Below are positions 6,089 through 49,665 of a stretch of DNA of 64,000 nucleotides, in pieces. The position numbers were made by a program, and so were the translations under genes. Source of the DNA: Brachybacterium timonense. Its GTDB lineage: Bacteria > Actinomycetota > Actinomycetes > Actinomycetales > Dermabacteraceae. Positions within the stretch are counted from its first letter, which is position 1; every line of letters starts with the position of its first letter. Location of the stretch: positions 865,615-929,614 of the forward strand of contig NZ_LT984895.1 of the NCBI RefSeq assembly GCF_900258505.1. The letters are read 5' to 3'. The notes beneath the pieces are model-generated. The model saw nothing but the letters and a program-made list of their open reading frames with translations. It had not been told where the DNA came from and did no database searches.

Positions 6089-7717
6089 TCACAGCTGCAG
6101 TGAGTCGATCCGTCGTTCCTGCGTCGGGCCGTCGTCGGTCTCGTCGATGACCGGGTGCTGGAGGCTGTCAGTGGAATCGAGTGGGACCGTATGGCCCAGT
6201 TCCTCGTCCCCGCCCCCGGACTCGAACGCTGCGTGTCCCGTCTCCTGGCCAGCCATCGACTCGGGCGTGCGGGCCTGCTGCACGACCGTCGGCGCCGTCG
6301 GCGCCCCGATCTGCACGCCCGCTGGCGGGGCAACCGCTTCCGACGGGCCCGGCTGCGGCGGGCGGGATGGCATCGACGGATGCTGATCACGCACCCCGGT
6401 GCGATGCGGGCCATGCGGATGGGAGCTGCTGCGCGATCGCTCGATGCTCTGCGCCTGCTCCACCCAGCGCTCCGCGACCCGCACAATCGCCTCCGTCGCC
6501 GCTTCCCAGGCGGCCTCCTGCTGTCGGTGAGGCCCGGTGGCCAACGACAGCACCACAGCCGCGGCGCGCAGAGCCAGCTCCGTCGGATCCACGCGCGAGG
6601 TGAACACCGACTCCCACGCCGTGATCGCGTCCTGCACGCGCCGCTGCGTGTCCCGGTCGATCCGCCCGGAATTGCCGTAATCCGCCAGCACGCTCAGGTG
6701 CGCCAGAAGGCACGCCAGGTCATCGGCCCGGCGCCCGGGGCCGACGGTGTCAATGTCGAGCAGACCCACCACGCGGCCGCCGTCGACGAACACCTGCGCC
6801 TCATAGAAATCACCGTGCACCACGTCATGCGGGTGCATGTCCTGCCGACGCTCCAGCAGGGCGAGCCCCTCGCGGATCGACCGCACCAGCGTCTCCAGGC
6901 GTGGACGCAGCGCCGGCACCGAGCTCGACACGATCCCCGCATAGAAGTCCGCGGAGTCCGTCCATGGCGGGCGCAGCGGCAGCGTGTACATCGAGGCCGG
7001 CAGGCGGTCAAGCAGCGCCACCAGATCCTCGCCCCGGCACGCCGCCGGACCCTCCTCGATCACCGCGCGAGACAGCGGACGCCCCGGCAGCTCCTGGAGA
7101 ACCACCAAGCCGTTGTGATGCGCGATCACCTCCGGCACCGGCACCCCGGTGGCAGTCAGCCGCTGATGACGCTCCACGATCTCCCCACTGCGATGCGGCT
7201 GCATCACCTTCAGGAACACCGCCGAGGACCCCTGCGAGACGCGCAGCACCGCACGTCGGCCCGGCCGATACGAAATGACGTCAATGCCGATCGGGGCGCT
7301 CGGGTCAGGGCCCAGCACCACGCCGATATCGTGCAGCGTGCGACCCACCACATCGGGGTAGCAGACCAGCGGCAGCATCGGCAGCCACGGGTCATGCGGA
7401 TAGCGCCACACCCGCACATTGATGTCGCCGTCGGTCATCACCAGGGTCTGCTCGGCCACGTGCACGTGCTTCTCGCGCTCGCCGATGTGGGCGCTCGCAC
7501 CGAACAGCTCTTCGCGCGCCGGTGCCTGTGGGCCATCGAGATCCGGCCACGACACCATCGTCCTGAATAGGGCCTTTGTGCTGCGGCCGGGGCGATGGTC
7601 GACATGGTCGAGCTGCCAGGAATGCAGCACGCCGCCGGAGTTGCCGACGGCCGAGCGCAGGAGCCCACCGGCGTCGGGCCCCGTCAGCAGCTCTGAGCCG
7701 TCCTGGGTGTGTGCCAT
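6089..7717 (-). CDS. APH-family phosphotransferase with long tail
   Basis: A 542-residue protein containing an aminoglycoside-phosphotransferase/choline-kinase-like fold at about residues 140-400. The catalytic loop reads HGDFYEAQVFVD (301-312), with Gln replacing the usual Asn, followed by the Mg-binding LLDIDTVG (319-326). The first ~140 residues are an N-terminal domain seen in related actinobacterial proteins. The last ~110 residues are disordered, rich in Pro/Ser/Gln/Asp. The substrate cannot be read from the sequence; members of this broad group phosphorylate small molecules such as sugars or antibiotics. It is divergent from the DUF3151 gene, with start codons 55 bp apart. Confidence 0.7.
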   Translation of the reverse strand: MAHTQDGSELLTGPDAGGLLRSAVGNSGGVLHSWQLDHVDHRPGRSTKALFRTMVSWPDLDGPQAPAREELFGASAHIGEREKHVHVAEQTLVMTDGDINVRVWRYPHDPWLPMLPLVCYPDVVGRTLHDIGVVLGPDPSAPIGIDVISYRPGRRAVLRVSQGSSAVFLKVMQPHRSGEIVERHQRLTATGVPVPEVIAHHNGLVVLQELPGRPLSRAVIEEGPAACRGEDLVALLDRLPASMYTLPLRPPWTDSADFYAGIVSSSVPALRPRLETLVRSIREGLALLERRQDMHPHDVVHGDFYEAQVFVDGGRVVGLLDIDTVGPGRRADDLACLLAHLSVLADYGNSGRIDRDTQRRVQDAITAWESVFTSRVDPTELALRAAAVVLSLATGPHRQQEAAWEAATEAIVRVAERWVEQAQSIERSRSSSHPHGPHRTGVRDQHPSMPSRPPQPGPSEAVAPPAGVQIGAPTAPTVVQQARTPESMAGQETGHAAFESGGGDEELGHTVPLDSTDSLQHPVIDETDDGPTQERRIDSLQL

Positions 7718-42000: not shown

Positions 42001-42487
42001 TCACATGTGCACGAGGATCTTCACCTCGGTCTCGCCGTGGTCACGAAGGCGCGTGTAGCCGTCCTCGACGATGTTCTCGACGTGGATCTTCCTGGTGATG
42101 AACTTCGAGAGGTCGAGCTTGTCGCTGCGGGCCAGCTCGATCGCCTCCACGTGGTCGTTCGCATAGCCGATGGAGCCACCGACGACCTTGTCACCCATGA
42201 TCAGCTGACCGGTGAGGTCCAGTTCCACCGGATTGACGTGGATCGCGACCACCTTGAGACGTCCGCCCGGTCGCAGGGACGCCAGCAGCGCGTCGACCAC
42301 CGGCGCAGAGGTTGTACTGGTTCGCGCGGCACGGTGGGCACTGGCCGCAGACCATCAGCGGCTCCACGACGACGTTGTCGCCGACGGCGAGACCCTCAAC
42401 GCCCTCACCCACCTCGGTGATGGTGCCGGAGAACTCGTGACCGAAGACTACCGGCAGCTGCTCACCAGAGAGGGGTACGGCGCATCA
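42001..42487 (-). pseudogene. Broken zinc-dependent butanediol/alcohol dehydrogenase
   Basis: On the minus strand, from ~42487, a frame reads VPLSGEQLPVVFGHEFSGTI then VEPLMVCGQCPPCRANQYNLC, the catalytic-zinc and structural-zinc regions of 2,3-butanediol-dehydrogenase-like MDR proteins. Directly after NLCA it jumps, in another frame, to VVDALLASLRPGGRLKVVAI and IGYANDHVEAIELARS through to the normal C-terminus at 42001. About 170-200 central residues (Rossmann fold) and the first ~50 residues with any start codon are missing. The product cannot be functional. Confidence 0.85.
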
Positions 42488-42520
42488 ACCGGCGCCGGCG
42501 CGTGACCGGGCATGCATATC

Positions 42521-42538
42521 TCGTGACCACGGTCATGG
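42521..42538. promoter_or_regulatory. 18-bp dyad upstream of two-component system
   Basis: TCGTGACC-AC-GGTCATGG, centred 43 nt before the histidine-kinase start codon. An almost identical but perfect palindrome lies upstream of the CPBP protease gene (47863-47880). Candidate operator for the response regulator encoded at 43922-44569. Confidence 0.5.
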
Positions 42539-42560
42539 GACGCAGCCCGACACCAGACCA

Positions 42561-42566
42561 TACGGT
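42561..42566 (+). promoter_or_regulatory. -10 box (TACGGT), leaderless start of histidine kinase gene
   Basis: TACGGT ends 6 nt before the GTG at 42573. With the start site at the GTG, the dyad is centred near -43, the position typical of activators that replace the -35 contact. Confidence 0.45.
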
Positions 42567-42572
42567 GGGCGG

Positions 42573-43925
42573 GTGACCTCGAGCGATATCGGTGCAACAG
42601 CAGTGGGGAGGGAACGTTCCCTCCCGATCCGTCGGCTGTTGCGTGCCCTGCAGATCATGGCTGTGTTGTGCATGCTGACCTCGGCAGTGCATAACTATGG
42701 TCTCGCTCTGCACGGCGGTGAGGACTGGGCTGCATACCGTTGGGACACCGGCGATCTGCATGCCGTGCAGGCCGTTGTCGTCTCCCTGCTGTGGCTGCTG
42801 CGTGGGCGTATGCGCACCCGGCGTTCCCGAGCCGCTGTCGCCTTCCTCGCTGTCCTTGCCGTGATGCCCATGTTCATGATCGGCAGGATCGCCGAAGCCG
42901 GGTTCATGATCCCCGTGCTTCTGGTGGCCTACGCCCTCGTGGTGCTGGACGGCTGGATGCGCGCGGCGCTGATCCTGGCTGGGCTCGAGTGCCTGAGCGC
43001 CATCGCTGTACATCTGATGGTGCGACCAAGTCCGGTGGGCTTGGTGATCGGCATGGCCAACGCGGCACCGGTGTTCGTCCTGCTCATGATCGGAATCGTG
43101 CTCGGGGCTGCCCTGGCCGCCTATGAACAGGGCCGACGAAGCGACGAGCAAACCATCGCCGAGCGCGACGATGCGCTCCAACAACTCGAGGACGCCCTGG
43201 CCCAGCTGCACAGCCAAGCGCAGACCGAGAAGGAGCTGATGCTCGCCGATGAGCGGGCACGCTCCGCCCGGGACCTGCACGACGGCCTGGGACACCGGCT
43301 CACGCTGATCTCCATGAGCCTGGACTATGCACGCCGCATGCGTGAGCGGGATGCAGCGGCGGCCTGGTCCGAGGTCGACACTGCCGCCCAGACATCTGCC
43401 GATGCCCTCACCGAGATGCGTACCTGGGTGCGAGCGCTCAGCCCTGTGCGCGACCGGAATGCGACCGGCACCGCCGCGATCGACGCCATCGCCGAATCCT
43501 TCCGCGGCACCGGCCTCGACGTTGCTCTGGAGCGCAGCGGCCCGGAGCCGATTCTCGACGAGGACACTTCGCTGCTGATCTACCGCGCCGTGCAGGAGGG
43601 CCTGACCAATGCACTGCGCCACGGACGGGCGCGGCAGGTGCGGATGCGCGTGGAAACAACGGCCGACACCGTTCACCTCACCCTGCGCAACGACCTCGAT
43701 GCGGCCGCCCGGGCAGCGATCCCCGTCGGCCCCCTCGCCCCCGGCTTCGGCCTGCGCGGGCTCACCGACCGGGCCGACGCTCTTGGTGGCGACGTGCGAG
43801 CCTGCCGCGACGGCGACGAGGTTGAGCTGCGCGTCACCGTACCGTCCCCGGCCACACGCGGCGCGGTCGCCCCCGTTCGCCCGTGCGATTCTGTGCCGAC
43901 CGCCGCCCAGGAGGCGACACGATGA
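42573..43925 (+). CDS. Sensor histidine kinase (HisKA_3 type)
   Basis: A 450-residue membrane sensor. Six or so membrane helices span residues ~25-183 without a sizeable extracellular domain. A short coiled coil (DEQTIAERDDALQQLEDALAQ region, ~190-225) leads to the HisKA_3 dimerisation domain with phospho-His236 in ARSARDLHDGLGHRLT, and a HATPase_c domain with N-box EGLTNALRHG (~348) and GFGLRGLTDRADALGG (~390). Signal unknown; intramembrane-sensing kinases of this form often respond to membrane stress. The response regulator overlaps by 4 bp. Confidence 0.88.
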   Translation: MTSSDIGATAVGRERSLPIRRLLRALQIMAVLCMLTSAVHNYGLALHGGEDWAAYRWDTGDLHAVQAVVVSLLWLLRGRMRTRRSRAAVAFLAVLAVMPMFMIGRIAEAGFMIPVLLVAYALVVLDGWMRAALILAGLECLSAIAVHLMVRPSPVGLVIGMANAAPVFVLLMIGIVLGAALAAYEQGRRSDEQTIAERDDALQQLEDALAQLHSQAQTEKELMLADERARSARDLHDGLGHRLTLISMSLDYARRMRERDAAAAWSEVDTAAQTSADALTEMRTWVRALSPVRDRNATGTAAIDAIAESFRGTGLDVALERSGPEPILDEDTSLLIYRAVQEGLTNALRHGRARQVRMRVETTADTVHLTLRNDLDAAARAAIPVGPLAPGFGLRGLTDRADALGGDVRACRDGDEVELRVTVPSPATRGAVAPVRPCDSVPTAAQEATR

Positions 43926-44569
43926 CCGACTCGACACCACTGCGGATCCTGCTGGTCGATGACCAGCAGCTGCTGCGCCGCGGCCTCATGATGCTGCTAT
44001 CCACCGTGGACGGCCTCGAGGTCGTCGACCAGGCGGCCGACGGCGCCGAGGCACTCGCCCGCATCCCGGCCGCCCGCCCCGATGTGGTGCTCTCCGACGT
44101 GCGGATGCCGGGCATGGATGGCCTCGAGCTCGTCGAGCGATGCCGAGAAGCGCACCCCGGACTGCCCGTGCTCCTGCTGACCACCTTCGATGACGAGCCC
44201 GTCGTGCGCGGCGCACTCGCCGCCGGCGCCGCGGGATTCCTACTGAAGGACACCTCCACCGACGCTCTCGCCCAGGCGATCCGCTCTGTGGCAGATGGCG
44301 GTATGGTCCTGGACCCGCGCGTGGCACGCATCGCCATGACGCCCGCGACGGAGTCGGAGTCTGATCCTGATGAGCTCGCCGTGCTCACCCGCATGGAGCG
44401 TCTGGTCGCGCAGCAGGTCGCCGAGGGCCGCACGAACAGTGAGATCGCCGCCGACCTCGTGCTCGCTGAAGGCACCGTGAAGAACCACGTCTCCGCGCTG
44501 CTGCGCAAGCTCGACGCCCGCGACCGCACAGCACTGGCCCTCATGCTCTACAAGACGTTGCACGGCTGA
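43922..44569 (+). CDS. NarL/FixJ-family response regulator
   Basis: A 215-residue regulator. Receiver domain with acidic Asp13-Asp14 and phospho-acceptor Asp59 in VVLSDVRMPGMDG, Thr in LLLTTFDDE and Lys in FLLKDTS. The LuxR-type HTH at ~150-210 (VAQQVAEGRTNSEIAADLVLAEGTVKNHVSALLRKL) binds DNA as a dimer. Translationally coupled to the kinase gene (ATGA). Likely acts on the 18-bp dyad at 42521 and 47863. Confidence 0.92.
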   Translation: MTDSTPLRILLVDDQQLLRRGLMMLLSTVDGLEVVDQAADGAEALARIPAARPDVVLSDVRMPGMDGLELVERCREAHPGLPVLLLTTFDDEPVVRGALAAGAAGFLLKDTSTDALAQAIRSVADGGMVLDPRVARIAMTPATESESDPDELAVLTRMERLVAQQVAEGRTNSEIAADLVLAEGTVKNHVSALLRKLDARDRTALALMLYKTLHG

Positions 44570-44608
44570 GCACAGCGGCGCCCGGTCCACGAGAGCTCAG
44601 CACGATGG

Positions 44609-46348
44609 TCACCGCGGAATGTTGCGCACGTTCGAACGCGCCATGTCGACCATCTTGCCGACGCCGCCGCCGAGCACCACCTTGGTGGAGCTCATGGCGA
44701 AACCACGGATCTGGTGCGCGGTGATCTTCGGCGGCATCGACAGCGCCAGCGGATCGGTGACCACGTCGATCAGCACCGGACCCTTCTTTTTCAGGGCTGC
44801 GGCGAGCTCCTTCTTCAGCTTCTTCGGATCGGTGATCCGTACCGACTCGATGCCAGCGCCCTTGGCGATCGCGGCGAAATCCACCTTCTCGTGATCGGTC
44901 TCGTGATCCGGGAGCCCCTCCACGAGCATCTCCAGCTTCACCATGCCCAGGGACGAGTTGTTGAACACGACGATCTTGGTGTCCAGCTGGTGCAGCTTCA
45001 CCGTGAGCAGCTCGCCCATCAGCATGCCCAGGCCACCGTCGCCACTCATGGAGATCACCTGTCGGCCCGGCTGCGAGGCAGCCGCACCGATCGCCTGCGG
45101 CAGGGCATTGGCCATGGTGCCGTGATGCCAGGAACCGAAGATGCGGCGCTTGCCGTTGGGGGAGATGTAGCGGGCGCCCCACACATTGCACATACCGGTA
45201 TCCACGGTGAACACGGCGTCGTCGTCGGCCAGCTCGTCCAGAACGGACGCCACGTACTCGGGGTGGATCGGCTTCATCCGCCCCACATTCTTGGTGTACG
45301 CGGCCACCACGCCGGTCAGTGCCTTCTCGTGCTTGCGCAGCATCGAGTTCAGGAACTTCCGGTTCTTCTTCGCCTTCACCATCGGCATCAGGGCGCGAAG
45401 GGTGAGCGCCACATCGCCGTGGATGCCGAGATCCAGCGGGATGCGACGGCCGAGCCGGGAGGCATCGGCGTCGACCTGCACAACCTTCGGGCCGTCCTCA
45501 GGCAGGAACTCGGAGTAGGGGAAATCGGTGCCCAGCAGGATCAGCAGATCGCACTCGTGGGTCGCCTCGTAGGCGGCGCCGTAGCCCAGTAAACCGGACA
45601 TGCCCACGTCGAAGGGGTTGTCGTACTGGATGAACTCCTTGCCGCCGAAGGCGTGGCCGATCGGTGCCTTCACCAGCTCTGCCAGCTCCAGCACCTCACT
45701 GCGGGCACCGGCTACACCGGCGCCGCAGAACAGGGTGACCTTCTGTGCGCGATCCACCAGGGTAGCGAGCTCGGACACCGCATCCGGGTGGGGCGCGACC
45801 GCGCCGAAGCGGGTGGTCAGTGTGCGGGTGAACGCGCCGTCGACCTCCTGGTCGGCCACGTCCCCGGGCAGAACCAGCACGGAGACGCCGCGCTCGGCCA
45901 GAGCGGTCTGGGCGGCGATGTGCAGCATCTTCGTGCCGTGCTCGCCGGAGTTGATCATCTCGCAGAACGCCGAGCACTCCTGGAACAGCTTCTCCGGGTG
46001 GGTCTCCTGGAAGAATCCGGTGCCGATCTTGTCGGAGGGGATGTGCGAGGCCAGCGCCAGCACGGGCGCTCCGTCGCGGTGGGCGTCGTACAGGCCCTGG
46101 ATCAGGTGGGTGTTGCCAGGGCCGCAGGATCCGGCGCACACGGCGAGCTTCCCGGTGATACGGGCCTCGGCGCCGGCAGCGAAGGCGGCGGCCTCCTCAT
46201 TGCGCACATGCACCCATTCGATGCCGTCGGTGGTGCGCACCGCGTCGACGACCGGGTTGAGGGAGTCGCCCACGACGCCGTAAATGCGCTCGACCCCCAT
46301 CTCTTGCAGCTGGGTCACGAGCAGTCGGGCCAGCGAAACCTTCGCCAC
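44609..46348 (-). CDS. poxB: Pyruvate oxidase / quinone-dependent pyruvate dehydrogenase
   Basis: A 579-residue thiamine-diphosphate flavoenzyme that decarboxylates pyruvate to acetate and passes electrons to quinone at the membrane. IYGVVGDSLNPVVDAVR, HVRNEEAAAFAAGAEA with the TPP-activating Glu, GPGNTHLIQGLYDAHRDGAPVLA, and the TPP-binding GDGGLGMLMGELLTVKLHQLDTK (residues ~435-457) identify it. The C-terminal region is present, needed in E. coli for membrane binding. The GTG start at 46348 has GGAAGGA upstream. Convergent with the response regulator gene (39 bp apart). Confidence 0.93.
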   Translation of the reverse strand: MAKVSLARLLVTQLQEMGVERIYGVVGDSLNPVVDAVRTTDGIEWVHVRNEEAAAFAAGAEARITGKLAVCAGSCGPGNTHLIQGLYDAHRDGAPVLALASHIPSDKIGTGFFQETHPEKLFQECSAFCEMINSGEHGTKMLHIAAQTALAERGVSVLVLPGDVADQEVDGAFTRTLTTRFGAVAPHPDAVSELATLVDRAQKVTLFCGAGVAGARSEVLELAELVKAPIGHAFGGKEFIQYDNPFDVGMSGLLGYGAAYEATHECDLLILLGTDFPYSEFLPEDGPKVVQVDADASRLGRRIPLDLGIHGDVALTLRALMPMVKAKKNRKFLNSMLRKHEKALTGVVAAYTKNVGRMKPIHPEYVASVLDELADDDAVFTVDTGMCNVWGARYISPNGKRRIFGSWHHGTMANALPQAIGAAASQPGRQVISMSGDGGLGMLMGELLTVKLHQLDTKIVVFNNSSLGMVKLEMLVEGLPDHETDHEKVDFAAIAKGAGIESVRITDPKKLKKELAAALKKKGPVLIDVVTDPLALSMPPKITAHQIRGFAMSSTKVVLGGGVGKMVDMARSNVRNIPR

Positions 46349-46757
46349 GTCTCATCCTTCCGGTGGCCGCGCCAACGGACGCGGCATGATCAGGAGCACA
46401 CGGGCCGCCGTCGGGGCCGAAGGGCCCGCGTCCACGACGGTACGCCGCTCCAGCAGCACATTCAGAATTGTGTCGACGACGTCACGGTGAGCGCGTGGGG
46501 CCGATCACGTCGGTTCATGCAGGCCAGGCCCGCGGCCGGGGCAGACAGGTGGGGTCAGGCCCACGGCGTGGTCAGCATGGACCGCACGGTTGGGGCTGCG
46601 AGCGCCGGTGCGCTGATCTGTTGCCGTGGCGATGTGCTTCGGGGTGGCGGCGTCAGGGGTGGGAGAGCGGGCGCCGACGTGACGCGGTGCTGGCGAGGCG
46701 CATGGATGGGAGCCTGTGCCGGCGAGCGGGCGTCGACGGGACCCGTCGCTCGCGGAC
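46349..46757. other. Gap between poxB and CPBP protease genes
   Basis: About 410 bp with no gene. The poxB promoter should lie here; an imperfect dyad CACATTC/GAATTGTG at about 46457-46472 is a possible binding site. The right end holds the hairpin of the leftward CPBP gene. The rest is GC-rich noncoding DNA with no recognised element. Confidence 0.5.
46722..46753 (-). terminator. Bulged hairpin downstream of CPBP gene
   Basis: gcgag (46722-46726) plus cgacggg (46734-46740) pair with cccgtcgctcgc (46742-46753), a 12-bp stem with a 7-nt bulge, 4 bp past the stop codon on the minus strand. Confidence 0.45.
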
Positions 46758-47825
46758 TTAGCGACCGTAGGGGCCCTGCTCGGCAACCTCCGCCCAGCGG
46801 GAGGCCGGGATTCGGACCGCGATCACGAGGCCCAGCGCGAGGTGGGCCAGGCCCAACACCAGGTGCACCGGGATGCCCCAGGGCAGCTCCAGCAGGATCA
46901 CTCCGGCCACAGCGTTGCCGACGTGGAACCCGCCGTGGATGCCGATGGCAGCCCAGACGCTGCGCATGGCGATCGCCAGGTAGCCGGCGGAGACGCCGAA
47001 GCCGAAGGGGATCAGCAGGTAGACGAGGTGATCGAGCAGGTTCTGCTGTCCGCCGGTCGAGGTCAGGTGCGGGATGCAGAAGGCGAAGGCGCTCAGCCAC
47101 ACCGCGGCATGCGGGCGGCGGGCCAGGGACTGCATGAGATAGCCGCGGAACAGCAGCTCCTCACCGATGCCCTGCAGCACGTAGGCGCGCACCAGCAGCA
47201 TGATGAGGGTCAGGACGATCAGCAGCGGCCCCATCGGCCCGGCCTCCACCCCTGCAGCGCCGGCAGCTTCCATCGGAGCGCCGAGCCCGGCCACTGCGGC
47301 GACGCCGTACCCGGCCACCGCGATCACGACGGCGAGCATGGTGCCGATGCCGAGAGCCTTGGCAGCGTTGCGGTTCCAGGTCAGGCCAAGGGCGCGGAAG
47401 GGGCGACGGTCCACCCAGCGCACCAGAGCCCACGAGAACAGCAGATAGGCGATCAGCGGCAGGGTCCAGCAGGCGATCCGTACCACCATAGCGATCTCGT
47501 CGGTCTGCCAGAACAAATCCTGCTTCCCGAACAGGGAGAGGACACCCAGGCCCAGGAGCGTCGCGCTCGCGGCCGGGATGATCAGGAAAGCGGTCAGCAG
47601 GATGCGGGCCCAGGCCGGCAGGCGAGGCGGCAGATCGGTGCGGCGCTCGCCGTCCGGCGAAGTTGGCGCGGAACGCGGGGGCGTGGGGCTGTCAGGGCGG
47701 GCGGTGTTGTCGATTCCGCCTGTGGCGGCAGAGCATGCGGGAGCGGGACGGTGTGGATGGCTCATCGATGTCATGCCTGCGACGCTACGGAGCAGAGCCT
47801 GCCCCTCAGCAGTGGCGGCCGTCAT
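46758..47825 (-). CDS. CPBP-family intramembrane glutamic protease
   Basis: A 355-residue membrane protein with about eight helices from residue ~72 on. Signature residues of the CPBP (CAAX protease/bacteriocin-processing) family: Glu222-Glu223 and Arg227 in GEELLFRGYLMQSL, His253 in FCIPHLTS, and IHGGFHVGNA near 305. Family members cleave within membranes, e.g. prenyl-protein or peptide precursors; the substrate here is unknown. The start is uncertain: ATG at 47825 (GGAGG only 2 nt upstream), 47774 or 47765; the first ~65 residues are disordered. A perfect 18-bp dyad upstream suggests control by the neighbouring two-component system. Confidence 0.85.
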   Translation of the reverse strand: MTAATAEGQALLRSVAGMTSMSHPHRPAPACSAATGGIDNTARPDSPTPPRSAPTSPDGERRTDLPPRLPAWARILLTAFLIIPAASATLLGLGVLSLFGKQDLFWQTDEIAMVVRIACWTLPLIAYLLFSWALVRWVDRRPFRALGLTWNRNAAKALGIGTMLAVVIAVAGYGVAAVAGLGAPMEAAGAAGVEAGPMGPLLIVLTLIMLLVRAYVLQGIGEELLFRGYLMQSLARRPHAAVWLSAFAFCIPHLTSTGGQQNLLDHLVYLLIPFGFGVSAGYLAIAMRSVWAAIGIHGGFHVGNAVAGVILLELPWGIPVHLVLGLAHLALGLVIAVRIPASRWAEVAEQGPYGR

Positions 47826-47862
47826 GACCTCCAGAGCAGACCCGTGACACCCGCGTGGCGAA

Positions 47863-47880
47863 CCATGACCGTGGTCATGG
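47863..47880. promoter_or_regulatory. 18-bp perfect dyad upstream of CPBP gene
   Basis: CCATGACC-GT-GGTCATGG: 8-bp perfect arms with 2-nt spacer, centred ~46 bp upstream of the ATG at 47825. It shares 14 of 18 positions with the dyad before the histidine-kinase gene at 42521-42538. The rest of the 47826-48013 gap shows nothing else. Confidence 0.55.
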
Positions 47881-48029: not shown

Positions 48030-48905
48030 TTAGGTCCGGACGTTGTGCGAGTCGTCGGTTTCCATGTGATGGGTGCACTGCCGAGCGTAGTCGGCCGGTG
48101 CGAGATAGCCCAGCGATGAGTGCCTGCGGTCGTGGTTGTACTCGGTCTTCCAGTCGCTGATCACCACGCGGGCGTGGAGCAGCGAGTAGAAGGTGTTGAT
48201 GTTGAGGCACTCGTCGCGGATCCTGCTGTTGAACGACTCGATGTAGCCGTTGCGCCACGGTGACCCGGGCGGGATGTAGCTCAGGCCGGTGCGGGTGCCG
48301 GCCCAGTGCGCCATGGCCTCACTGATCAGTTCGGGCCCGTTGTCGCAGCGCAGCGTCGCTGGGGCGCCGCGGACAGCGACGAGCGCTTCGAGGTGGTCGG
48401 TGAGCTTCGTGGCGGTGATCGAACGGTCGACCAGGCCTCCGATGCATTCGCGAGTGTGCTCGTCGATGATGGAGCAGATCTTGATCGGCCGGCCGCGTTC
48501 GTCGCTGTCGAATTGGAAGTCGACCGCCCACACCAGGTTCGGCGCCGAGGCGGAGGGCGCGTCGGCGGTGGAGGCACCCACGCGTTTGCGGCGGCGACGT
48601 TGCGGCACGCGGAGGCCCTCCTCGCGCCACAGGCGTTGGATCTTCTTGTGGTTCACCATCCAGCCCTCTGCGCGGGCGTCGTGATACGCCCTGCGGTATC
48701 CCCATCGTGGGTGCTTCTTCGCGTACGCCCGGAGCCAGTCGCGTCATGCCCGGTCCGGATCCGCGGCCGTTTCCCGGTGCAGGGGGCGCCGGTAGGCGGA
48801 GCGCGACAGCCCGGCCAGACGGCACGCCATCCGCTCACTGACCCGCAGTGCCCGGATCAGGTGAGCGACGGCGGCGCGGCGTCTGCCCGGGCCTAGAAGT
48901 TTCCC
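48030..48905 (-). pseudogene. IS407-type transposase orfB, nonsense-mutated
   Basis: DDE integrase-type transposase. The frame opens as a -1 extension of orfA (KLLGPGRRRAAVAHLI, ERMACRLAGLSRSAYRRP) and carries WAVDFQFDSDERGRP, DNGPELIS and SPWRNGYIESFNSRIRDECL with the three acidic residues. A TGA at 48744-48746 interrupts it between DPDRA and RDWLRAYAKKHPRWGYRRAY; both sides are in the same frame, so a single base change inactivated the full-length product. A shorter protein from 48659 would lack the N-terminal DNA-binding region. Confidence 0.85.
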
Positions 48906-49177
48906 TCCGCCAACTCCTTCAGCGCGGCCTTCTCGAGCTCCGCCTCGGCCAGCAGCCGCTTCAGCGTGGCGTTCTGCTTCTCGAGCTCCTTGAGCCGTTT
49001 CGCGTCGTCGGCTTTCAGCCCGCCGTACTGGTTCCGCCACCGGTAGTACGTCTGCTCGGACACCCCGAGCTCCCGGCACACCGCCGCGACATCCTGCCCG
49101 TCAGCGAGCATCCTGTCCGCCTGCCCGAGGTTACGAACCACCTGCTGCGGCGTGTGACGCTTCCTGCTGTTCGACAT
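48893..49177 (-). CDS. IS407-type transposase orfA
   Basis: A 94-residue HTH protein: NSRKRHTPQQVVRNLGQADR, ELGVSEQTYYRWRNQYGG (helix-turn-helix) and a leucine-zipper-like tail (LEKQNATLKRLLAEAELEKA). It ends in EGNF, where the canonical slippery heptamer G-GGA-AAC (complement of 48899-48905) allows -1 frameshifting into orfB. Intact. Confidence 0.85.
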   Translation of the reverse strand: MSNSRKRHTPQQVVRNLGQADRMLADGQDVAAVCRELGVSEQTYYRWRNQYGGLKADDAKRLKELEKQNATLKRLLAEAELEKAALKELAEGNF

Positions 49178-49256
49178 GATCTGACCAGTCTCCCTGCCCG
49201 CGGCCGCGGGCGACAGGACAACTCCCACAATGACTGGACCTACAAAAGGGGGGTCA

Positions 49257-49665
49257 AGTCCCTGGAGCACGCACTTCTCTCAATGGGGCAAGCAGGAATG
49301 AAAGCGGATCGATCCACCATTCTGACAGGGGTAGCCAGTACGTCCCGTTGGCCTATTCAGACGCGCTCGTCACGGCAGGTGTGAGAGCTTCAGTCGGTAC
49401 CGTCCGAGATAGTTACGATAACGCGCTGGCAGAGACGACAGTGAACGGCCTCTACAAGATGGAGCTGATCCACTCGAAGCGGATCTGGGAATCCGTCAGC
49501 GAGGTCGAGCCCGCCACGACGGGCTGGGTCCACTGGTGGAACACGGCCCGGCTCCACTAAGCTCTCGGCTACCGCTCCCCAGCAGCGGTCGAATCGGCCT
49601 ACACTCACCCCACGACGACCGCGCCCGCGACCGTCTAACCACGGAACGAACCCCAGGGCGCTTCA
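49257..49665 (+). mobile_element. Truncated IS3-type element (3' fragment)
   Basis: The last ~410 bp of an IS3-family element related to the copy at 51059-52391, cut at the right end of the IS407-type element. It codes LEHALLSMGQAGM, then after a frameshift near 49310 HHSDRGSQYVPLAYSDALVT, DSYDNALAETTVNGLY and WVHWWNTARLH, where TAA at 49558-49560 replaces the expected Glu codon before ALGYRSPA. The terminal inverted repeat (complement of TGAAGCGCCCTGGGGTTCG) ends at 49665. Nonfunctional. Confidence 0.85.

Follow-up and report, generated by a model that had tools for sequence, protein, structure and literature searches.

A probable operator dyad shared by a NarL-type two-component system and a CPBP membrane-protein gene in Brachybacterium and other Actinobacteria

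Two kinds of described system bear on the locus analyzed here. Escherichia coli NarL activates ogt from dimer sites at −44.5 and −77.5, acting through the C-terminal domain of the RNA polymerase alpha subunit; each operator has the 7-2-7 format, which is defined as two inverted 7-bp elements 2 bp apart (PMC7419079). CPBP/Abi membrane proteins have been tied to two-component systems in Staphylococcus aureus, where WalKR induces spdC and SpdC inhibits WalK (PMC5854430), and in group B Streptococcus, where Abx1 is linked to CovSR in a role that is independent of its putative catalytic residues (PMC3578759). More distant comparisons are offered by LiaFSR and VraSR, which combine an intramembrane-type HisKA_3 kinase with autoregulation, and by BceRS-AB modules, in which a two-component system lies beside an ABC transporter of LolD/FtsX type. 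The regulators of the SpdC/WalKR, Abx1/CovSR and Bce systems are OmpR-type.

The window, a 64,000-nucleotide stretch of the Brachybacterium timonense genome, contains a kinase-regulator gene pair and, beyond the regulator gene and poxB, a CPBP gene, each of the two promoters having its own copy of an inverted repeat (Table 1). The original prediction was that the NarL-type regulator controls both itself and the CPBP gene. Both dyads lie where it had placed them and are, as it stated, identical at 14 of 18 positions on the forward strand; the CPBP gene runs on the reverse strand, so the match rises to 16 of 18, the AC center included, when each is read in the direction of its gene. The repeat has the NarL-type operator format and, over 30 tabulated kinase-side sites, conforms to CRTGACC-NN-GGTCAYG. 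We consider it very probable that the dyads are operators of the regulator encoded at 43922–44569, which would act as an autoregulated activator of a small envelope-defense module.

Table 1. Coordinates of the features discussed (window positions unless a relative's locus or contig is given)
Feature	Position	Strand	Basis or remark
Kinase-promoter dyad, CGTGACC-AC-GGTCATG, 7-2-7	42521..42538 (core 42522-42537)	+	center 42529.5 = −43.5
−10 box TACGGT of kinase promoter	42561..42566	+	sequence
Sensor histidine kinase, HisKA_3	42573..43925	+	GTG start, taken as leaderless
NarL/LuxR-type response regulator, Response_reg + GerE	43922..44569	+	4-bp overlap with kinase stop
CPBP (Rce1-like/Abi) putative membrane protease	46758..47774	−	PF02517, 1.6e-16
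−10 box TAGCGT of CPBP promoter	47782..47787	−	7 nt before ATG 47774; same in most orthologues
Secondary half-site TGAC	47821..47824	−	implied center 31.5 bp from −10, the kinase-type position
CPBP-promoter dyad, CATGACC-AC-GGTCATG, 7-2-7	47863..47880	−	center 84.5 bp (8 turns) from first base of −10
Probable relic operator before frameshifted ABC ATPase	L105 (G009) 6529-6912		
C-terminal CPBP fragment	G009:C5:5523-5906		

Pfam domains place the pair among NarL/FixJ regulators with HisKA_3 kinases (PF00072, 2e-28; PF00196, 1.9e-15; PF07730, 1.8e-15); the HATPase_c domain of the kinase scores below its gathering threshold (21.5 against 26.4). The pair is no equivalog of MctRS, MadRS or UhpAB by NCBIfam cut-offs (MctS, 84 against 700; MadR, 146 against 300; UhpB, 74 against 408). 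The closest solved structures to the regulator are those of LiaR and VraR (5hev, 7ve6, 4gvp), and the LiaFSR/VraSR likeness would extend to the intramembrane-type kinase and to autoregulation. However, the kinase reaches only 39.8 bits against the LiaS equivalog cut-off of 450, and the neighbor of the pair is a CPBP protease or ABC transporter gene rather than a LiaF-like one. The kinase has five or six hydrophobic segments, taken as membrane helices, and no large extracellular domain.

The CPBP protein has the Rce1-like Pfam domain of the CPBP/Abi family and its EExxxR, FxxxH and HxxxN/B motifs, the last appearing here as HxxxH; these residues (E205, E206 and R210; F232 and H236; H280 and H284) are invariant in 18 orthologues. 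A search of PDB sequences with the CPBP alignment returned no match. The predicted model (pLDDT 85, pTM 0.82) has SpdC (6u0o) as its best structural match, with a TM score of 0.62 by target length, a probability of 1.00 and an E value of 1.2e-3.

The kinase promoter proved to be as originally described, with TACGGT followed by 6 nt and the GTG at 42573, and it has no recognizable −35 hexamer. The dyad center, predicted at about −43, computes to −43.5 if the mRNA is leaderless. That figure follows from taking a start 6–8 nt after the −10 box as leaderless; leaderless genes are common in Actinobacteria (PMC3160421). Spacing from dyad center to the first base of the −10 box is nearly fixed, at 31.5 bp (16 loci) or 30.5 bp (11 loci) in 27 of 28 assignable kinase promoters; the sole exception, G064, has 39.5 bp. 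In G064 the kinase frame is also broken after ∼130 codons (L100, 7801-8190). A kinase-type promoter could not be assigned in 8 of the 24 wider loci (L138, L142, L144, L148, L149, L150, L152 and L153). Upstream of the kinase dyad in the window, positions 42007-42500 (−) hold the remnant of an alcohol-dehydrogenase-like gene, in which the relative G026 carries ∼410 bp more.

The CPBP promoter is built differently from what was predicted. A TANNNT box, in most cases TAGCGT, is common to the orthologues and is followed by 6–8 nt and ATG, so the start is most likely the ATG at 47774 and not 47825; three orthologues (L136, L142 and L146) have no such box near the start. Both dyads had been placed ∼35–55 bp from their start codons, a figure that fails for the CPBP gene, where the dyad is 97.5 bp upstream of the likely start. 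In 23 loci the distance from dyad center to −10 box was 52.5–53.5, 62.5–64.5, 73.5–75.5, 84.5–86.5, 95.5 or 106.5 bp, with none between, the boxes having been picked by reading frame and start codon independently of register. The period is 10.5–11 bp (R = 0.87–0.89; Rayleigh p about 2e-8, related genomes not being independent samples), and the phasing persists when the set is thinned to 16 (p 5e-5 by simulation). Of 23 effector promoters (22 CPBP genes and the small membrane-protein gene described below), 20 carry TGAC or GTCA as a half-site exactly where the kinase dyad would be relative to the −10 box, again with relatives that are not independent; shuffled spacers gave a mean of 0.35 and a maximum of 4 in 5000 shuffles. 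No in-register half-site was found in the remaining promoters of the 23 (G005, G031 and L132). The ABC-side promoters of Phycicoccus and Arachnia, in lineages discussed below, also carry it. Directly behind the CPBP dyad in the window is an IS3-type transposase gene pair (48030-49270, −), which may have removed whatever gene was divergent from CPBP there.

The site is rare in its host. In the 3.09-Mb Brachybacterium genome (G000), TGACCNNGGTCATGGG occurs three times, upstream of the kinase gene, the CPBP gene and, outside the window at C1:832188, a small membrane-protein gene following guaB. This 16-base site is present in 9 of 47 family genomes, the reversed-pattern control in none of the 47; eight of the nine also have the kinase, with the site adjoining it. 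The shorter TGACCNNGGTCA, matched exactly, is found at 15 places in G000 against three for its reversed control, and only three of the 15 have a downstream TANNNT box and start codon with the site in register. A strict kinase-type composite (dyad, 24–25 nt, TANNNT, 4–8 nt, RTG) matched the kinase promoter and nothing else genome-wide, and its control matched nowhere. Genome scans with RTGACCACGGTCAY allowing two mismatches were discarded as too loose (144 + 131 matches; reversed control, 30 + 26).

The third gene (L004, G000:C1:832188-832625) encodes an unclassified 122-amino-acid protein with three hydrophobic segments. Its promoter has the architecture of the other effector promoters at an otherwise unrelated gene. 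No dyad was found at its orthologues in other species, and we regard it as a strain- or lineage-specific member by sequence comparison. The original prediction counted poxB within the unit, but the best site upstream of it matches at only 7/10 positions; poxB was rejected as a member and is probably a bystander. The regulon as identified comprises three sites, of which one is ∼76 kb distant; membrane stress as its theme is no more than plausible.

In relatives the usual order is CPBP (reverse), dyad, kinase and regulator, so that one dyad lies between divergent genes, and the locus is often beside hutIH, as it is in the window. The order in the window could have arisen by tandem duplication of the CPBP-dyad-kinase-regulator unit followed by loss of one CPBP gene and one kinase-regulator pair. 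Among 47 family genomes, 11 have both kinase and CPBP gene, 34 have neither, one has only the kinase and one only CPBP (p 8e-9). The unpaired CPBP gene, in G009, is reduced to a C-terminal fragment; the unpaired kinase, in G064, is accompanied by an ABC transporter in place of CPBP. Within the family the arrangement occurs in Brachybacterium, Dermabacter and Helcobacillus; outside it, the exact dyad and arrangement were found in Actinomyces, Schaalia, Propionibacterium, Mobilicoccus, Agilicoccus, Enemella, Micropruina and Propionicimonas. Loci in A. israelii, R. rhodnii, Phycicoccus, Ornithinimicrobium, Arachnia and G064 lack CPBP and have instead a divergent ABC ATPase and FtsX permease, a transporter of LolD/FtsX type; the regulator tree requires two such changes of partner. 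Across both kinds of locus the regulators have an almost unvarying recognition helix, GTVKNHVS. The motif scan and the orthologue comparison, on which the original prediction had staked its case, came out in its favor: the site is rare and is conserved before orthologous kinase and CPBP genes. Control of the regulator's own promoter, from the site at −43.5, and of the CPBP gene thus has comparative support.

Loss of the pair leaves traces. In the nearest relative (G026; L104, 6848-7066) the first 73 kinase codons are followed directly by the C-terminal end of the regulator, a natural deletion of the pair. The kinase promoter is still recognizable, one conserved base of the dyad has been lost (GGTCA to GGCCA), and no CPBP gene was found anywhere in the genome. 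In G009 a frameshifted ABC ATPase gene of the same kind has a dyad 42.5 bp upstream of it. Given that gene and the CPBP fragment elsewhere in the genome, we set aside chance as the origin of this dyad and read it as probably a relic operator. An exact stray dyad, with an ambiguous promoter register, was seen in G031 (L106, 5801-5812), upstream of an M23 peptidase gene.

The sequence of the site, its positions, conservation, co-occurrence with the kinase and phasing are matters of direct observation, and they bear on three other accounts of it. The separation of the kinase and CPBP genes by rearrangement in the window would allow the second dyad to be a duplicate, so that the pair is a chance repeat or a functionless copy of one ancestral site. 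We give this almost no credence: spacing, phasing and half-sites are conserved across genera whose kinases are only 40%–55% identical, a third copy with the same architecture stands at an unrelated gene, and the composite promoter shows no genome-wide excess at random places. By these comparisons the dyad pair marks a conserved control circuit rather than an accidental repeat. The dyad might also be thought the operator of another regulator, such as a TetR- or GntR-type repressor controlling the kinase and CPBP genes, since many families use short palindromes, binding by the regulator encoded here is deduced from sequence, and some dyads occur near other genes, the M23 peptidase gene of G031 among them. 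Yet the site goes with the kinase-regulator pair from family to family, no matter which effector gene is divergent, has the NarL 7-2-7 format, lies upstream of the −10 box and not over it, and decays where the pair is deleted, which makes another regulator very unlikely.

The NarL-type regulator itself, phosphorylated or not, might instead repress both divergent promoters until a signal relieves it. The sign of regulation is not readable from sequence, and one dyad shared by divergent promoters fits either sign. However, a −35 hexamer is lacking from the kinase promoter, whose site is fixed at −43.5; upstream sites shift only by whole turns, as fits contact with polymerase; and −10 boxes and starts are free of overlapping sites. 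A site at −43.5 with turn-phased sites upstream is typical activator geometry, and we hold repression to be improbable. The preferred reading can be compared with NarL at ogt, with which this locus shares the 7-2-7 dimer site and the placing of one site near the −35 region and one upstream; activation through the alpha subunit C-terminal domain (PMC7419079) would be a further likeness. Here, unlike at ogt, the core is TGACC/GGTCA, the signal and kinase differ, and the upstream site is the strong one, its distance varying between species by whole turns.

Binding, the sign of the control, the signal and what the proteins do, protease activity included, are inferred, and the activator model is put forward in those terms. 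CRTGACC-NN-GGTCAYG would be the binding site of phosphorylated regulator dimers. A single dimer at −43.5 of the kinase-regulator promoter would replace the −35 hexamer and give positive autoregulation. At effector promoters, a strong dyad lies farther upstream, a whole number of DNA turns from a weaker half-site at −43.5, and the two would activate cooperatively from the same side of the helix. The effectors would be the CPBP protease, the ABC transporter in other lineages, and the small membrane protein in this strain; they probably protect the envelope against membrane-active antimicrobials. Because membrane helices are its only input, the kinase probably senses damage inside the membrane. 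Feedback of the CPBP protein on the kinase is a further possibility, in the way that SpdC acts on WalK (PMC5854430). The present circuit differs from SpdC/WalKR and Abx1/CovSR in its NarL-type regulator, divergent gene pair and single shared operator. CPBP-less lineages resemble BceRS-AB modules, but the transporter here is exchangeable with a CPBP protease, and Bce permeases differ from those found here.

The kinase-CPBP control circuit is apparently undescribed so far; in the open-access literature, of which coverage was incomplete, we found no description of a CPBP-linked two-component system in Actinobacteria. A bolder view is that of a widespread actinobacterial cassette in which a conserved regulator-operator core is paired with exchangeable envelope-defense effectors, either a CPBP protease or an ABC transporter of FtsX type. 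Its effector promoters would evolve only by whole-turn steps of the strong distal site against a fixed proximal half-site, and CPBP would restrain the kinase by feedback, much as SpdC inhibits WalK. We offer this view tentatively, as conceivable rather than probable.

With this circuit, an intramembrane-type sensor kinase and a CPBP protease that occur together in Actinomyces, Schaalia, Propionibacterium, Dermabacter and Brachybacterium acquire testable targets. The comparative spacing data amount to a natural helical-phasing experiment and predict which base changes and insertions (5 versus 10–11 bp) would break activation; the broader question of NarL-type activation from distal sites is therefore open to direct test. 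The role of CPBP proteins such as these is often unknown. Their exchange with ABC transporters suggests that they may be equivalent in job to transporters for peptide export or detoxification.
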